In this document: one piece after another, positions 4,359-60,485 of the stretch | Numbering within the stretch: position 1 is the first letter of the stretch | Layout of the letters: every line of letters starts with the position of its first letter | NCBI GenBank assembly: GCA_030646295.1 | Contig: JAUSND010000025.1 | Coordinates: forward strand, 1 to 64,000 | DNA from: Moraxellaceae bacterium | GTDB lineage: Bacteria > Pseudomonadota > Gammaproteobacteria > Pseudomonadales > Moraxellaceae | Length of the DNA: 64,000 bases | Direction: 5' to 3' | Notes under the pieces: generated by a model | Databases searched by the model: none | Told to the model about the DNA's origin: nothing | Seen by the model: the letters and a program-made list of their open reading frames with translations, nothing else | Translations under genes and position numbers: made by a program

Positions 4359-4393
4359 CATAAAAAAGCCGGCGCAAGCCGGCTTTTTTATGG
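4359..4393. terminator. bidirectional intrinsic terminator between serA and aqpZ
   Basis: A GCCGGC/GCCGGC stem with a gcaa loop is flanked by AAAAAA on the left and TTTTTT on the right, and the pairing extends to cat/atg outside. It ends the convergent serA and aqpZ transcripts on both strands. Confidence 0.92.
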
Positions 4394-4411: not shown

Positions 4412-5104
4412 CTACGCTTTTTCTTCGCAACCGATAAACCGGTAAACCCCAGCCCCGATCACGGCACCTGCAATCGGTGCCAGCCAGAACAGCCAGAGCT
4501 GTGCCGTGGCCCAGTCACCAACAAAAACCGCCACCCCCGTACTGCGCGCCGGATTCACCGAGGTATTGGTGACGGGAATGGAAATGAGATGAATGAGGGT
4601 AAGCCCCAGGCCGATGGCAATGGGCGCAAAGCCCTGCGGGGCACGCTTGTCGGTGGCCCCCAGAATGATGATCAGGAACATCATGGTCATCACCACTTCG
4701 GTCACCAGTGCCGCCGTCATGGAGTAGCCACCCGGGGAGTGGGCACCATAGCCGTTGGACGCAAAACCGGCCGAGACGTCAAAGCCGGCCTTGCCACTGG
4801 CGATCAGGAACAGTACGCCACCGGCCACGATCCCCCCCAGCACCTGCGCCACGATGTAGGGCAGCAACTTGTTGGCGGGAAAACGCCCACCGGCCCACAA
4901 CCCGATGGAAACGGCCGGATTGAGATGACAACCCGAGATATGGCCAATGGCAAAGGCCATGGTTAGCACGGTCAGGCCAAAGGCCAGGGAAACGCCATGC
5001 AGGCCAATGCCCACCTCGGGAAAGGCAGCGGCCAGTACCGCGCTGCCACACCCGCCAAGGACCAGCCAGAAGGTCCCGATAAACTCTGCACCATATGCTT
5101 TCAT
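4412..5104 (-). CDS. aqpZ: aquaporin Z
   Basis: The product has 230 residues, one less than E. coli AqpZ. It forms water channels in the inner membrane. Both half-helix NPA motifs are present, in [12 protein letters not shown] near residue 60 and in [13 protein letters not shown] near residue 185. [17 protein letters not shown] begins the first of six membrane helices. The frame is open upstream to 5191, but the family start is [11 protein letters not shown] at 5104, with AAGGA eight bases before it; an ATG at 5113 is possible. It is convergent with serA and divergent from the CsgG-like operon. Confidence 0.95.
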
Positions 5105-5278
5105 GAAGATCATCCTTGTCTGTGGGTGATACGGTAATGCAACCCTATCTTTATGACAGATGCAGGTAAAAAACCAGTGCGTCACCGCCATAAGCAGCCG
5201 TTTAACCCTCCACCCGCAGACATCCGCCTCCAGATTCGATAGTGTCCAACGTTCCGTGCCCCGTGTTCTGGAGGAACC

Positions 5279-6187
5279 ATGCGCCTTGTCCGTTTGCTGC
5301 TCATCCCAGCCCTTGCCCTGACTGCCCAGCTGGCCGAAGCGGCTCGCCCCACGCTGGCCGTACTGCCGTTTACCGTGGACAAGCAGGTGATCATGGTCAC
5401 CCCCGATGCCATCCTGAAGGGCACGGTGGAAAGCCAGACCTCACTGCTGACGGACGAGCTGATTCACCAGCTGGTTGCCACCCGCAAGTTTGACGTGCTC
5501 GAACGCCAGCGTGTTGATGATCTGGTGCAGGAAAAGGAATTTGAGGAAAGCGACTACGCCTCTCCGGATGAAGCACCGAAAATCGCCAAGCTGCTGGGCG
5601 CGGATTACTTTGTGCTGGGCCGCATCGACGACATCAGTGCCGAATCGGTCAGCAAGGCAATCCCCTACTCCACCCAGGTGAGCATCCAGCAGGAAGGCCA
5701 CATCAAGTTGTACCTGCGCGTGATTGATGCGCGCACGGGCCGCATTGTGGCCGCCGAAAAATTCAGCCAGGAAGCCGTGCTGCGCAAGCCCAAGAAAGGT
5801 GAAAGTATCGGCAGCAAACTGCTGTCCGGCGCCGCCGCCGCCATGGTCAGCCGCATTACCGACACCGTGTTCCCGCTGCGGGTGGCCCGCGTGGAAGGCA
5901 AGGTGATTTACCTTAACCGTGGCGCCGAGAGCAGCGGCCTGAAAAAGGGCGATGCCCTTGCCGTGTTCAGCCAGGGCGAAGCCATTATTGATACGGACAC
6001 CAATGAAACACTGGGTCATGCCGAAACCGATGTGGCACGCGCCACCGTCACGGAAGTGCTGCCCCGTTTTGTGAAGGCGGAAATTACCGGCGAGGCGACG
6101 GTCACGACCGGCATGCTGGTACGCAAGGCCGATGCAGAAGTGGCCGCACCCGCTGCGGCTGATACCCCCCGCGGCCCCCGCTGGTAA
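5279..6187 (+). CDS. CsgG-like secreted protein of the LpoB operon
   Basis: The product has 302 residues. A signal peptide ([21 protein letters not shown]) ends near residue 21, with no lipobox cysteine. A CsgG/LpoB-type domain follows: [10 protein letters not shown], then [20 protein letters not shown], and [15 protein letters not shown]. The second half, from about residue 195 ([22 protein letters not shown]), resembles a small beta domain seen in FlgT-like proteins. It should sit in the periplasm. Unlike CsgG it lacks a lipid anchor, so pore formation is not suggested. It begins the four-gene envelope operon that ends with lpoB. Exact function unknown; an accessory role in peptidoglycan synthase control is inference. 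Confidence 0.82.
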
Positions 6188-6215
6188 ACCGGCAAGAGAC
6201 AGGAACGTCCTGAAC

Positions 6216-7598
6216 ATGCGCCTATTTCGCGGGATATCCCTGCTGTTGCTGCCGGTAGTTCTGGGTGGCTGTGCAGCAGGCTCGGTCTTCATGCCTTACC
6301 CCATGCAGGCATCCGGCTGGCAACGCTCACTGGAGCAGAGCCAGCCCGATAGCGCACTGACGGCACTGGATCGCAAGCGCGAAAGTGCTGACCGGCTGCT
6401 CTACCTGCAGGAGCGCGGCCGCATCGGCCAGCTTGTCAGTAACACTGATGCCAGTAAAACCGATTTTGATGCCGCGATCGGTGCGTACGCCACACTGGAA
6501 GATCGCGCCGTGATTTCAGCCTCGGCCACGCTCGCCTCGGGCGCCAGCCTGATCACCAACGACAATGCCCGTCCCTATGCCGGCAGCCTGTACGAGCGCG
6601 TGTTTGTGCATCAGTACCAGGCACTGAATTATCTGGCCAGTGGCGATGGCAGCGCCGCACTGGTGGAAGTGCGCCGGGCCAACCTCATCCAGAACGAAGC
6701 GCTGGCCAAAAAGGAAAACACCGTCGACTCGGCTCGTGAAGACGCCGAAAAGAAAGGGTTTGATGCCGAGCGCTATGACGGCTATTTCACCGGCATGGAC
6801 GTGGCCGCCGGCAGGGTCAAATCCGGCTTCCAGAATGCTGCCACCTTTTACCTCTCGGGCCTTATCTACGAAGCCACCGGTAACAACAACGACGCCTACA
6901 TCGACTATCGCAAGGCGCTCGAACTCGTGCCGGACAACCCCTATGTGCAGCGCGACGTGGTGCGCACCGGGCTCAAGACCGGCATCGAGGACGCGCAGAA
7001 ACTGGCGCGCCAGATCGGCAATGTCCAGTATGGCCCGGCCAAGGGCGAAGGTGAGCTGGTCATCTATCTGGAAGAGGGGTTTGTCCCCGCCAAGGAGGCC
7101 GTCGGCATTCCGATCTGGACCTCCAAGACGCTCAATACCGTGAGCTTTCCGGTCTACTCCGGCAACATTCCGGCCCCCTCCGCCATGGTCGTCGATGTCA
7201 GTGGCCGCACAATGGAAACATCATTGCTGGTGGATACCCGCGCCCTTGCCGTGCGCACCCTCAAGGACGAGATTCCCGGCATGCTGGTACGCGCCTTCCT
7301 GCGCCTGCTGACCAAGCAGGAAATGCAGCGCCAGCTCCAGCAGCAGGACTCCTCCGGCCTGATGGGGCTGGCCGGGACACTCTACAGCCTCGTCACCGAC
7401 AAGGCCGACCTGCGCTCATGGCTGACCCTGCCCGGCAGCGGCCAGGTACTGCGCATTCCCCTGCCGGCGGGCGCGCATCGCGTGGCCGTCCCCGGCATGA
7501 GTGCTCCGCTAGACGTCGAGGTCCGTAACGGAAGACCGACACTGGTGCACTTGGCGGTCCTGCCCGGCAGAACGTACAGTCACATCTATCCTTTATGA
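6216..7598 (+). CDS. COG3014-type TPR lipoprotein of the LpoB operon
   Basis: The product has 460 residues. The N-terminus LLLLPVVLGGCAAGS is a lipoprotein signal with the lipobox LGGC; residues after the cysteine do not show an Asp+2, so outer-membrane sorting is likely. Helical repeats resembling TPRs occur at about 130-250, including GSLYERVFVHQYQALNYLA and NNDAYIDYRKALELVPDNPY. The second half is beta-rich with no known catalytic motif. I place the start at the ATG at 6216, just before the signal sequence, rather than 6132. It lies 28 bases after the CsgG-like gene. Proteins of this family co-occur with LpoB and YcfL in many gammaproteobacteria; the role is not established. Confidence 0.82.
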   Translation: MRLFRGISLLLLPVVLGGCAAGSVFMPYPMQASGWQRSLEQSQPDSALTALDRKRESADRLLYLQERGRIGQLVSNTDASKTDFDAAIGAYATLEDRAVISASATLASGASLITNDNARPYAGSLYERVFVHQYQALNYLASGDGSAALVEVRRANLIQNEALAKKENTVDSAREDAEKKGFDAERYDGYFTGMDVAAGRVKSGFQNAATFYLSGLIYEATGNNNDAYIDYRKALELVPDNPYVQRDVVRTGLKTGIEDAQKLARQIGNVQYGPAKGEGELVIYLEEGFVPAKEAVGIPIWTSKTLNTVSFPVYSGNIPAPSAMVVDVSGRTMETSLLVDTRALAVRTLKDEIPGMLVRAFLRLLTKQEMQRQLQQQDSSGLMGLAGTLYSLVTDKADLRSWLTLPGSGQVLRIPLPAGAHRVAVPGMSAPLDVEVRNGRPTLVHLAVLPGRTYSHIYPL

Positions 7599-7647
7599 CA
7601 TATTCATTCCATCCTCAGGAGAGGAAGGATTACTCAAGGAGAACCCC

Positions 7648-8034
7648 ATGAAACGTCTCGCTACCGCCCTGCTGCTGGGCTCCAGCCTGGTCCTGTCGGC
7701 CTGCTCGTCCGACCCGACCAAAGAGATCGTCAACTACCGCGGTGGCGACATGAAGGGCACCATCAAGGTTGCCCGCTCTGCCGTGGTTGAGACACCCGGC
7801 GGCCTGCCCAAGGCACAGGCCACACTGAAGAACACGGCCGGCACCACCCAGAAATTCGAATACAAGATTGTCTGGTTCGACAGCAACGACATGTCGCTGG
7901 ACGAAGACAATCGCCCATGGAAACCTGCCAGCGTTGCCGGCAAGGATGAAACCACCATCAGCGCCACCGGCCCCAGCGACCGCGCCAAGCGCTTCCAGAT
8001 CCAGATTCGTGAACCCCAGGGAGTGACCCAGTAA
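7648..8034 (+). CDS. ycfL: YcfL-family lipoprotein (DUF1425)
   Basis: The product has 128 residues. The signal peptide ends in the lipobox LSAC, so the mature protein is a lipoprotein starting CSSDPTKE. The body is a small beta-sandwich with QKFEYKIVWFDSNDM, characteristic of YcfL, and ends in FQIQIREPQ. AAGGAG sits about eight bases before the ATG. Its stop overlaps the lpoB start as TAATG, so the two are translationally coupled, as in E. coli where ycfL precedes lpoB. The molecular role is unknown. Confidence 0.85.
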   Translation: MKRLATALLLGSSLVLSACSSDPTKEIVNYRGGDMKGTIKVARSAVVETPGGLPKAQATLKNTAGTTQKFEYKIVWFDSNDMSLDEDNRPWKPASVAGKDETTISATGPSDRAKRFQIQIREPQGVTQ

Positions 8035-8636
8035 TGATGAAGCGCACACTTGTTCTTGTTCCGCTGCTCGCCGCCGGCGTGCTCGGCCTTAACGGTTGTA
8101 CCTCCGTGCAATATGGTGAAGCCACCGCCGTCGAAACCGTGAACACGGACTTCGGCTCGACCGACCTGCAGATGATTGCCGAGAAGATGGTCGATGACAT
8201 GCTGGCATCCGGTGCCGTCGCAGAGATTGGTGCCGGCGGCAAGCGTCCCATCCTCTTTGTCGACAAGATCAAGAACAAGACCACCGAACACATTGATACC
8301 GAGTCCATCACCGACACCATCTCGACCAAGCTGCTCAACTCCGGCAAGTTCCGCTTTGTCGACATGACAGCGGTTGATGCCGTGATGAAGCAGATGGATT
8401 ACCAGAAAAACAGCGGCCTGGTGGACGAGGCCAAGTCGGTACAGATGGGCCGTCAACTCGGCGCCCAGTACATGCTCTATGGCAACTTCTCCAGCATTGT
8501 GAAAACGGCCGGCAATACCAAGGACGTTTACTACAAATTCACCATGAAGCTGACTGACATTGAAAGCGGTCTGGTGGAGTTCCAGAGCGAAAAGGAAATC
8601 CGCAAGACCAAGAAGAAGAGCTTGATGGGCGGTTGA
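8034..8636 (+). CDS. lpoB: penicillin-binding protein activator LpoB
   Basis: The product has 200 residues. The lipobox LNGC ends the signal peptide, so the protein is an outer-membrane lipoprotein facing the periplasm. LpoB reaches through the wall to stimulate the bifunctional synthase PBP1b. The globular domain has PILFVDKIKNKTTEHIDTES, KLLNSGKFRFVDM and LGAQYMLYGNFSSI, all typical of the family. The short linker after the cysteine is less proline-rich than in E. coli. It is the last gene of the operon and is followed by a strong terminator. True pseudomonads use the unrelated LpoP, so LpoB is useful for placing the organism. Confidence 0.9.
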   Translation: MMKRTLVLVPLLAAGVLGLNGCTSVQYGEATAVETVNTDFGSTDLQMIAEKMVDDMLASGAVAEIGAGGKRPILFVDKIKNKTTEHIDTESITDTISTKLLNSGKFRFVDMTAVDAVMKQMDYQKNSGLVDEAKSVQMGRQLGAQYMLYGNFSSIVKTAGNTKDVYYKFTMKLTDIESGLVEFQSEKEIRKTKKKSLMGG

Positions 8637-8686
8637 GACGTGCGGTTACATGGCCGGGTAGCTGATGCTGCCCGCCTGCGCTTGTT

Positions 8687-8726
8687 GCCAATAAAAAAGC
8701 CCGCTTGCGCGGGCTTTTTTATTGGC
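8687..8726. terminator. bidirectional terminator after lpoB
   Basis: GCCCGC and GCGGGC pair around a ttgc loop and are flanked by AAAAAA/TTTTTT, with the pairing continuing to gccaat/attggc. It serves lpoB on the plus strand and the EF-hand protein gene on the minus strand. Confidence 0.92.
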
Positions 8727-8730
8727 CGGA

Positions 8731-10881
8731 TTATTTCATGCCAAACCAGTTTCTCTCGTATCCCCACACGGCACCGGCCACCACCACAATCAGCAGCAGC
8801 CACCACACCCAGCGATGTTTCTTCGCTGCATACGGATCAGTGAGCGAACGCTCGGCACCTGCCGGCAACTCGGCCAGCTGCGTCAGCACCGTACCGAAAG
8901 CAATATTGATGTTGGCCGCCGTATTCACCGCCCAGCCATTGGCATCCAGCAACGGGCCCAGATTGCGTTTGCGCAGCTTGAACCAGGCCAGCACCATCGA
9001 CGGGCCGGACACCAGCAGCATCACGCCCACCACAGCCAGGGGCATCTGCCACCACTTGAGCGCCAGAAAGCCGGCAGCAACTGCTGCCAGTGCCGTTCCG
9101 ATAGCACCAATGGCGAGACCGATGGCGGCAAAAATACCGGCAAACTTGGCAATATCAAACGGCACAGGCGGCGTGGCCGGTGCACCGGCAGGCGCAGGTG
9201 CTGCCGTTTCCACCTTGGTTGCCGCACTCCCCACGCCAGCCGCAGCCTTTTCTTCCATGGCCTTGTCACGTGACGCAGCCATCTTCTGCATCTGGTCCGA
9301 AATCATCTTGCCGATGCGACGATAGGGCGTCCAGAACGCTTCGCGTACGCTGATCGGGTGCTCAACCAGCTTGATGACGTGGGCATCCCAGTCAACGCCG
9401 TTACGGTCATAGAAAATACCGTTGCGACCCGTGGTCAGCTTGCCGGAATCACCCGCAGTAATCGCTGCGACAATCGTCATCTTTTTTGCTTCGCCGGGAC
9501 GCGTGCAATCGCAATACACCAGATAGCTGCCACTGCCGGCGGCCTGTGCACTGTGTTTGGCCATGTCGCCAACCCGCACCGTGAGGTCGCAGCTCTTGCC
9601 ATCAATGAACAGCGTGCCTGCCTGAAAAATTGCCTTGGCACGATGCGTATAGAAGTCACGGAATGAGATGAAATTATTGAGCAGCACCACCAGGTTTTTC
9701 TGGAAACGGACAATACGATCCACATCCAGCAGGCCATCAGCCTCGACGGCGACTGACTTGTCCAGCGCCACCAGCTCCAGCAGTTTTTCCTTGCTGCCAT
9801 CGGCCACCATTGCAGCAATGCGGCCTGCATCCAGCACGTCAATCGCCTGTACCGGTTTTTCAGCAAGCCAGCCCTGATAGGCTGCAAACGTCGAGACAAT
9901 GCCTTGCCACTCGACCGCCGACAGCTCGGACTTTTCACCCAGCAATGGCGTCACTACCTGAGCGCGGAACGTCGCAAGCGCCGACATCCAGCCCGGATTG
10001 ATGCCGTCCTGCAGTGGCAGTGCACGGCCCGCCACCACGTTGGCCAGCGGCAGTCTTGCGGCATCACCGGTGTTGGCAAGATCAAGTGCCGCCAGGCGAA
10101 CCAGCTCGGCCTCTTCGCCATTCATCAGGGCGCCGGCACGCGGATCAAACGACGCCAGTCGCACGCGATTAAAAAAATCATCAATCTTGCCACGCACGGC
10201 ATTGAGCGCTGCCGCCGCCTCTGCAGTGGCATCACCCAGTGGCCGCATGGCGTCATCCGCCGCCGCACGGGCCTGCCAGTCCTGCAGCAAGGCCGCCTGA
10301 TCAAAAAACGCCGTGATTTTTTCTTCGGAGATACCCTGCTCGCCGCTGCGGTCCGCATCGGAGCCAAGCGCAGTAATGATGTCGGCAATGGTCGCCTGTA
10401 CATCAGGATTATCCGCCATCAGTGCCGGCACAATGCCGTCCCCGTTCGGTTTCTCGGGCGGGAACACCCTGGCCAGATCTTCCGTATCCGCCACCTGCAA
10501 CGCAACGGCATCGGCCTTGCCCAGATTGGTAAGCAGGCGAAGGGCCGCTGCGTGCAACGCACGACCTTCTTCATTGTCGGCGAGGGCGGCCAGCGGCAGG
10601 CTGTCGCCACTGAACAACACCTCGGGATCGCCCAGCCGCTGCAGCACCCAGTCCACTGCATTCAGCAACTCCGGCGCGCGAATGCGGCCGTCGTTATCCC
10701 CGTCAAGATAAGCCAGCGTGCGCGCATCAAACTCAAGACCCGTGACCGGACACGCCAGTGCCGTCCACAGCTTCTGGTCGAGGGTACGCAAGGCAGCCAG
10801 ATCTGCCGGCGTATCAAGGCGGACCTGATCAAAACCACCGGAGCGGAAAAAGCGCCAGCGGTGCGGGGTTGCGTCCTTCAT
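8731..10881 (-). CDS. uncharacterised 716-residue membrane protein with an EF-hand-type loop
   Basis: I do not recognise a named family. Near residue 59 there is a canonical 12-residue EF-hand loop, DGDNDGRIRAPE, with Asp at 1, 3 and 5, Gly at 6 and Glu at 12, which predicts calcium binding. The long middle part (about 80-560) is mostly alpha-helical with no catalytic motif. An Ala/Pro linker near 560 precedes three or four membrane helices (GIFAAIGLAIGAIGTALAA, PLAVVGVMLLVSGPSMVLAW, WVWWLLLIVVVAGAVWGY). There is no signal peptide, so the large domain is probably cytoplasmic. It stands alone between the lpoB terminator and a hydrolase gene on the same strand. Confidence 0.8.
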   Translation of the reverse strand: MKDATPHRWRFFRSGGFDQVRLDTPADLAALRTLDQKLWTALACPVTGLEFDARTLAYLDGDNDGRIRAPELLNAVDWVLQRLGDPEVLFSGDSLPLAALADNEEGRALHAAALRLLTNLGKADAVALQVADTEDLARVFPPEKPNGDGIVPALMADNPDVQATIADIITALGSDADRSGEQGISEEKITAFFDQAALLQDWQARAAADDAMRPLGDATAEAAAALNAVRGKIDDFFNRVRLASFDPRAGALMNGEEAELVRLAALDLANTGDAARLPLANVVAGRALPLQDGINPGWMSALATFRAQVVTPLLGEKSELSAVEWQGIVSTFAAYQGWLAEKPVQAIDVLDAGRIAAMVADGSKEKLLELVALDKSVAVEADGLLDVDRIVRFQKNLVVLLNNFISFRDFYTHRAKAIFQAGTLFIDGKSCDLTVRVGDMAKHSAQAAGSGSYLVYCDCTRPGEAKKMTIVAAITAGDSGKLTTGRNGIFYDRNGVDWDAHVIKLVEHPISVREAFWTPYRRIGKMISDQMQKMAASRDKAMEEKAAAGVGSAATKVETAAPAPAGAPATPPVPFDIAKFAGIFAAIGLAIGAIGTALAAVAAGFLALKWWQMPLAVVGVMLLVSGPSMVLAWFKLRKRNLGPLLDANGWAVNTAANINIAFGTVLTQLAELPAGAERSLTDPYAAKKHRWVWWLLLIVVVAGAVWGYERNWFGMK

Positions 10882-26133: not shown

Positions 26134-26169
26134 ATAAAAAAAGCCCGGTGATTACCGGGCTTTTTTTAT
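26134..26169. terminator. terminator after the truncated metK copy
   Basis: AGCCCGGT and ACCGGGCT pair around gatt, flanked by ataaaaaa and ttttttat. In a chromosome without the cassette this would be the terminator of intact metK. Confidence 0.9.
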
Positions 26170-50558: not shown

Positions 50559-50599
50559 CCAATAAAAAAGCCGGCCACTTCAGCCGGCTTTTTTATTGG
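50559..50599. terminator. bidirectional terminator between the DUF4124-like gene and slmA
   Basis: AGCCGGC and GCCGGCT pair around cacttca, flanked by ccaataaaaa and tttttattgg. Confidence 0.92.
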
Positions 50600-58204: not shown

Positions 58205-58236
58205 GTAAAAAAGCCCGGCATGCCGGGCTTTTTTAC
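58205..58236. terminator. terminator after rpmG
   Basis: AGCCCGGC and GCCGGGCT meet with only an at-centred loop, flanked by gtaaaaa and tttttac. Confidence 0.92.

Positions 58237-59665: not shown

Positions 59666-60485
<820 letters not shown>

Follow-up and report, generated by a model that had tools for sequence, protein, structure and literature searches.

What is the role of an LpoB protein whose gene is packed together with three other envelope genes? This question is raised by positions 5279-8636 of a stretch of DNA from a Moraxellaceae bacterium (assembly GCA_030646295.1, contig JAUSND010000025.1), here called the window, meaning the whole 64,000 nucleotides analysed. LpoB is the standard example of how peptidoglycan synthesis is controlled from the outer membrane, and a sequence-only reading of the locus had proposed a regulatory complex in which LpoB activates the peptidoglycan synthase PBP1B and the neighbouring proteins tune the activation. 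We found that COG3014, a tetratricopeptide repeat (TPR) lipoprotein, and a distinct cluster type of LpoB form, as judged from sequence comparison, a near-inseparable core that is usually accompanied by YcfL and optionally by a CsgG/FlgT-like protein, and that this module seems not to need PBP1B. The four genes are as follows:

5279-6187, + strand: gene 1, soluble periplasmic CsgG/FlgT-like protein, open reading frame of 302 amino acids
6216-7598, + strand: gene 2, TPR lipoprotein (COG3014), 460 amino acids from the lipobox ATG
7648-8034, + strand: gene 3, YcfL/DUF1425 lipoprotein, 128 amino acids
8034-8636, + strand: gene 4, LpoB of the cluster type, 200 amino acids

The open reading frames and the Pfam and NCBIfam matches confirmed the four tightly packed same-strand genes of the sequence-only reading, apart from the name COG3014, which is that reading's own label; the family is defined here by our alignments A1 and A3. 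Genes 1 and 2 are separated by 28 nt and genes 2 and 3 by 49 nt, and genes 3 and 4 share one base (TAATG), with an alternative start of gene 4 possible at 8037; the open frame of gene 2 already begins at 6132, ahead of the lipobox ATG. The statement that two of the neighbours of LpoB carry lipoboxes and one is soluble fits genes 2 and 3 on the one hand and gene 1, with an ordinary signal peptide and no lipobox, on the other. In lipoproteins the residue after the lipobox Cys (Asp or not) bears on outer-membrane sorting. The lipoboxes of genes 2, 3, and 4 (LGGC, LSAC, and LNGC) are not followed by Asp, and outer-membrane sorting is therefore expected for all three.

We examined the linkage of these genes in 80 named loci, which were selected for their resemblance to the window (metagenome bins, with labels that can be wrong, account for many of them), and in two genome sets, a class set of 185 and an order set of 119, which partly overlap with each other and with the named loci (G139 and G220 are the same place, as are L034 and L089). 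Thresholds were set after viewing the match lists, at E ≤ 1e-20 for LpoB and E ≤ 1e-14 for the PBP1B docking domain UB2H in the class set, and at E ≤ 6e-30 for LpoB and E ≤ 1e-50 for COG3014 in the order set; weaker matches left out by them account for 16 of 52 LpoB genomes and 46 of 151 UB2H genomes in the class set, and for 19 of 69 LpoB genomes and 12 of 58 COG3014 genomes in the order set. A single protein as query detected COG3014 in 32 of the 185 class genomes, all 32 with a strong LpoB; when a COG3014 profile was added, applied to 11 of the class genomes, COG3014 was present in 34 of the 36 strong-LpoB genomes (Fisher, 3.9e-35). In the order set LpoB lies within 2 kb of COG3014 in 47/47 strong loci (46 genomes), and the four of 50 strong-LpoB genomes without COG3014 have their LpoB in the E. 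coli setting hinT-ycfL-lpoB. All 80 named loci were fetched; LpoB follows COG3014 in 72 of the 73 that are intact downstream, and YcfL does so in 62, the sole locus without a downstream LpoB stopping at a contig end. Nine Shewanella loci have no YcfL. Collapsing the loci at 70% identity leaves 35/35 for LpoB and 33/35 for YcfL. The CsgG/FlgT-like gene adjoins 34 of 67 named loci (18 of 33 clusters), where its place varies between upstream, internal, and 3' of LpoB, and lies within ~3 kb of COG3014, by coordinates, in 5/32 class genomes. Record titles of the clusters include Moraxellaceae, Shewanella, Piscirickettsia, Hylemonella, Geobacter, other Desulfuromonadales, Candidatus Brocadia, and Omnitrophota. 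We concluded that the linkage of COG3014 and LpoB is far above chance. The earlier expectation that the four genes would not separate freely across genomes thus held for genes 2 and 4, mostly with gene 3, and failed for gene 1.

Gene 4 exceeds the cut-off of TIGR02722 (8e-62; 208.6 bits against 110.55) and matches the LpoB family PF13036 at 3e-53, and gene 3 matches DUF1425 (PF07233) at 1.1e-18, with the solved relative 3o0l at 1.5e-8. E. coli LpoB has a long proline-rich disordered linker, which gene 4 lacks: between the lipidated Cys (Cys22 in gene 4) and an anchor in the domain there are 49 residues with no Pro in the window LpoB and 80 with 17 Pro in E. coli LpoB. We compared 95 cluster LpoBs from the named loci and the class set (near-copies included, and a few, as in L049, away from COG3014 in the stretch at hand) with 21 sequences that we labelled the E. 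coli type, namely E. coli LpoB itself and 20 fetched weaker LpoB matches or pairs. A script did not detect the lipobox in 10 of the 95; the distance from Cys to anchor is 45-53 residues in 84 of the 85 measured and 62 in one. The 45 residues after the Cys hold a median of 2 Pro in these 85 (range 0-4) and in 29 cluster LpoBs of the order set (range 0-2), and a median of 12 (range 2-19) in the 21 of the E. coli type, two of which hold just 2-3. Cluster LpoBs have conserved motifs in the N-terminal segment (e.g., FGSTDLQ) and in the domain (NKTxEHIDTES) that are absent from E. coli LpoB; the EHI pattern occurs in 57/95 named and class cluster sequences, 28/30 order cluster sequences, and 0/21 of the E. 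coli type, a count that misses the QHI form of Desulfuromonadales. By linker and motifs, then, there are two LpoB types, a cluster type and an E. coli type. Both co-occur in seven genomes and in Aeromonas caviae (4.94 Mb replicon), whose record NZ_AP026896.1 is chromosome-sized yet filed as a plasmid.

Is PBP1B the partner of the cluster-type LpoB? A PBP1B regulatory complex would agree with the LpoB profile match of gene 4 past its cut-off, with the UB2H-bearing PBP1B of the window genome (G000:C14, UB2H 1.8e-20), and with the presence of UB2H in 24 of the 32 COG3014 class genomes. Genetic data from V. cholerae assign lpoB to the PBP1B pathway, though not without a difference, since loss of csiV and lpoB together is viable and a csiV mrcB mutant was not obtainable (PMC4063736), and the paper on Helicobacter HP0018 infers the same direction (PMC11394524). 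On the other side, UB2H was not found in 8 of the 32 COG3014 class genomes. Among 30 carriers picked by us from the 80 named loci, a full-length UB2H in a PBP1B-sized frame was found in 11, all of them gammaproteobacterial records, and a PBP1B-type UB2H was not found in the other 19, of which 16 gave no match and three a short partial one (two in Mfd-size frames; the match in G186 passes the UB2H cut-off in a 1301-codon frame, read as Mfd). UB2H occurs in 27/36 strong-LpoB class genomes against 78/149 without a strong LpoB (p = 0.015), a weak association, and LpoB tracks COG3014 (34/36) far better than it tracks UB2H. With these gaps among the carriers and this weak association, the cluster module seems independent of PBP1B. 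The cluster LpoBs also lack the long proline-rich linker, and in the window genome a 193-residue lipoprotein gene lies directly 3' of the PBP1B gene (L032, G000:C14:7000-17000). Its product has a Pro-rich stretch and then TPR, as does LpoP, which activates PBP1B in Pseudomonas and is described for P. aeruginosa (PMC7267771); it differs from LpoP in length (193 vs 259 residues), has a shorter Pro-rich stretch, and is encoded outside the cluster. We rejected a PBP1B-only complex as the general function on the distribution of UB2H across the 30 named carriers and 185 class genomes, and as an account of the locus it seems to us unlikely.

How E. coli LpoB came to be a PBP1B activator may be read from its neighbourhood and from a tree of LpoB sequences (87 of 146 rows after near-copy removal, midpoint root). 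A 29-row group (support 99/97) unites 19 of the 21 E. coli-type LpoBs with 10 cluster LpoBs from the sampled order; the 19 form two lineages in it, and the stem of the larger one measures 2.41. E. coli LpoB itself sits on a long branch. The gene order in E. coli K-12 is ycfL-lpoB-thiK-nagZ-ycfP, and no COG3014 gene was found in the 8 kb read around ycfL-lpoB. In ~1.5 kb on each side of 30 order-set clusters, ycfP is near 15, nagZ near 5, a thiK-like gene near 5, and hinT near 2, so that E. coli shares with some COG3014 clusters both the adjacency of YcfL and LpoB and flanking genes. The most economical history is one in which COG3014 was lost and the linker gained, so that E. coli ycfL-lpoB would be what is left of the module, and we consider this probable. 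More broadly, we lean towards the view that LpoB was not a PBP1B activator originally; in groups ranging from Proteobacteria to Desulfuromonadales, Brocadia, and Omnitrophota it would be an ancient partner of COG3014, joined by YcfL and in many cases by a FlgT-like protein, and the PBP1B-LpoB pair of E. coli would be a recent rewiring through linker gain and COG3014 loss. We found no paper that derives E. coli LpoB from this cluster in searches aimed at this link, with subscription journals largely outside them.

The three-gene core has published counterparts. In C. jejuni the cj0089-cj0090-cj0091 operon is co-transcribed, CmeR-activated, and encodes lipoproteins of 453 amino acids (TPR type), 122 amino acids, and 207 amino acids (PMC3100323); the orthologue of the 207-amino acid Cj0091, HP1457, is termed an LpoB homologue (PMC11394524). 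Compared with these descriptions, genes 2-4 of the window are of the same type, a TPR lipoprotein, a small lipoprotein, and an LpoB homologue in that order and of similar sizes, whereas the operon as described includes no CsgG/FlgT-like gene (PMC3100323). H. pylori HP0018 is a TPR lipoprotein homologous to Cj0089, and its deletion gives hypervesiculation and less helical cells (PMC11394524). The HP0018 homologue adjoins an LpoB homologue in many enterohepatic Helicobacter species, as in the window; unlike gene 2, hp0018 of H. pylori stands alone (PMC11394524). To this published three-gene core the present analysis adds an optional FlgT-like member, an apparent independence from PBP1B, and the proposed history of rewiring.

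Taken together, we favour the explanation that the genes encode an outer-membrane lipoprotein module, of which PBP1B is a client in some Gammaproteobacteria and which was rewired in the E. coli lineage; our confidence in this explanation as a whole is evenly divided. COG3014 would act as a scaffold at the inner face of the outer membrane, and the cluster LpoB would be held near it by its conserved N-terminal segment rather than swinging on a linker. The FlgT-like protein may dock through its C-terminal Trp tail, and the assembly would position or restrain peptidoglycan enzymes and so couple the outer membrane to the wall. Some Gammaproteobacteria would have recruited PBP1B as a client, and the rewiring in the E. 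coli lineage would consist of the gain of a Pro-rich linker by LpoB and the loss of COG3014. A scaffold for peptidoglycan enzymes is the best available proposal for what the module does, and it could go either way; in its favour are the deletion phenotype of HP0018 and the partners AmiA and MltD that co-immunoprecipitation suggested for this protein (PMC11394524).

Several points weigh against this explanation. UB2H is present in most of the COG3014 class genomes, and where it was not found it could be diverged and hence missed, many carriers being metagenome bins of unstated completeness; the V. cholerae genetics cited above count against it too, the more so if the LpoB of that species is of the cluster type. 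The linker argument is weak by itself, since even a short tether could extend into some of the periplasm. The E. coli-type rows are not one clade in the tree, with at least 3 label changes and two of the 21 rows elsewhere, and the tree is affected by long branches, midpoint rooting, and a bootstrap that had not settled. Cj0089 is reported to be associated with the inner membrane and the cj0091 mutant to have an adherence defect (PMC3100323), both a poor fit to a shared outer-membrane scaffold, and the suggestion of AmiA and MltD as candidate partners of HP0018 comes from a single replicate of co-immunoprecipitation (PMC11394524).

Gene 1 passes the Pfam cut-offs of CsgG (PF03783; 1.5e-17, 64 bits against 20.8) and LpoB (2.9e-7) and stays below those of FlgT_M (3.1e-6; 27.9 of 31.2 bits) and FlgT_C (5.8e-4; 20.7 of 27 bits), with the domain order M-C of FlgT. 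Its structure model (predicted local distance difference test score, pLDDT, 78.9) gave FlgT as the best fold by Foldseek (3w1e, 6.8e-17; 8z5n_0, 3.2e-16), then CsgG, and it also matches PelC. The global TM-score to 3w1e is just 0.38 with a root mean square deviation of 12, and the domain orientation of the model therefore differs. We take 3w1e and 8z5n to be Vibrio FlgT. Gene 1 resembles it in how the middle and C-terminal domains are folded and ordered; it lacks the N-terminal domain (the alignment begins at FlgT residue 98), has a conserved C-terminal Trp tail, and is also present in genomes in which no FlgI was found. Trp is among the last 3 residues in 36/36 aligned relatives, which suggests a docking peptide. 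With the curli pore CsgG gene 1 has the family match in common; unlike the lipoprotein CsgG it has no lipobox. The profile alignment of gene 1 with LpoB (hhalign probability 97.2, E 4.3e-11) makes the two distant homologues, and this much of the earlier suggestion that gene 1 is a paralogue of LpoB stands, although its nearest solved fold is FlgT and not LpoB.

FlgT, CsgG, and PelC are ring formers, and the match of gene 1 to all three folds lends something to another explanation, in which the LpoB-fold and FlgT/CsgG-like proteins would form an outer-membrane ring for export or assembly, served by the TPR lipoprotein, in analogy to PelB-PelC and CsgG. COG3014 matches TPR pilotins (TadD 8odn, PilF 2ho1), and a small gene family lies after LpoB in 5 of the 54 loci in which a close downstream gene was compared by blastp grouping (L035:5219-5770, with relatives in L092, L119, L121, and L122), the single member put to Pfam, that of L035, being an OmpA-like outer-membrane beta-barrel. 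The pilotin matches are unspecific, standing among many TPR folds; the downstream gene varies between groups, no exported substrate is apparent among neighbours that were not annotated systematically, and at 15/33 cluster loci no neighbouring gene 1, the likeliest ring component, was found. We regard such a ring as quite improbable. That gene 1 is simply the flagellar H-ring protein FlgT, placed by chance beside a lipoprotein operon, is very improbable: the best fold is FlgT and the flagellar P-ring protein FlgI is present in 17 of 32 gene 1 carriers picked by us, but no FlgI was found in the remaining 15. These include the window genome (97.4% complete) and the five near relatives examined that are Moraxellaceae-like. 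Gene 1 also keeps with the cluster in its three different positions, and we ruled this candidate out.

If many LpoBs belong to a PBP1B-independent module, the label "PBP1B activator" that automatic annotation gives them will often mislead. A shared context would then link three lipoprotein families of which little is understood, and the route of E. coli to the PBP1B switch could be tested by comparing the two LpoB types that coexist in some genomes.

Relatives of gene 1 in Desulfuromonadales were identified by an iterated profile. Of two put to Pfam, L077 gave no match and L099 a CsgG match just under the cut-off, and relatives from other groups, L062 and L071, both pass it. By the same profile, tandem CsgG-like genes lie between COG3014 and YcfL in L086, L095, L096, L099, L100, L108, L114, and L125, and the first of the two in L099 carries a PEGA domain.

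Gene 2 gave sub-threshold TPR matches alone in Pfam and NCBIfam. In its model (pLDDT 88.5, predicted TM-score 0.88) a TPR domain comes first, and the mixed alpha/beta part behind it contains a D-x-R-x-W-x-x-L-P motif, at residues 398-406, that is invariant across 38 aligned sequences. Foldseek and VIA returned matches to TPR folds only, so that the part after residue ~278 was barely probed; among PDB sequences the COG3014 profile retrieved mainly TPR proteins, and our literature search for COG3014 found no paper. Alignment A1 excludes L016 and L021, A3 holds 37 of 38 cluster representatives (L061, truncated, is excluded), and A5 is a selection of 30. Gene 2 of the window is matched at 97% by Moraxellaceae bacterium UBA8513, a very close relative. 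In Hylemonella gracilis (L059, L060) gene 2 is 58-59% identical to that of the window, and only Mfd-like UB2H matches were found; horizontal transfer of this cluster is possible. The Pedobacter-titled record L054, with a gene 2 69% identical to that of the window, is probably a mislabelled bin.

Genes 3' of LpoB vary by group. Among the 54 loci compared, a lipoprotein gene of the 164-residue type follows LpoB in 12 (L077, L080, L083, L088, L096, L097, L099, L100, L102, L104, L107, and L120) and a large lipoprotein gene in 8. In L050, LPP20-type lipoproteins above the Pfam cut-off flank LpoB-COG3014 (4420-5448 and 7384-7962), and in L051 one just under the cut-off (4899-5951) lies between COG3014 and LpoB.

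In the window the operon is followed by one further element:

8687-8726, + strand: strong intrinsic terminator 3' of gene 4, palindromic, with an 18-pair stem and A/T runs on both sides

A promoter scan of 5000-8900 gave 0 sites, against a shuffling expectation of 1.0. A 716-residue protein is encoded convergently with the operon at 8731-10881 on the - strand. Similar palindromes of the AAAAAAGCCCGC type (≤1 mismatch) occur in six copies in the window, at 4362-4389, 8693-8720, 26137-26166, 50564-50594, 58207-58234, and 59669-59696; with 12 strand matches in the window against 0.48 expected, this palindrome is probably a favoured form of terminator.

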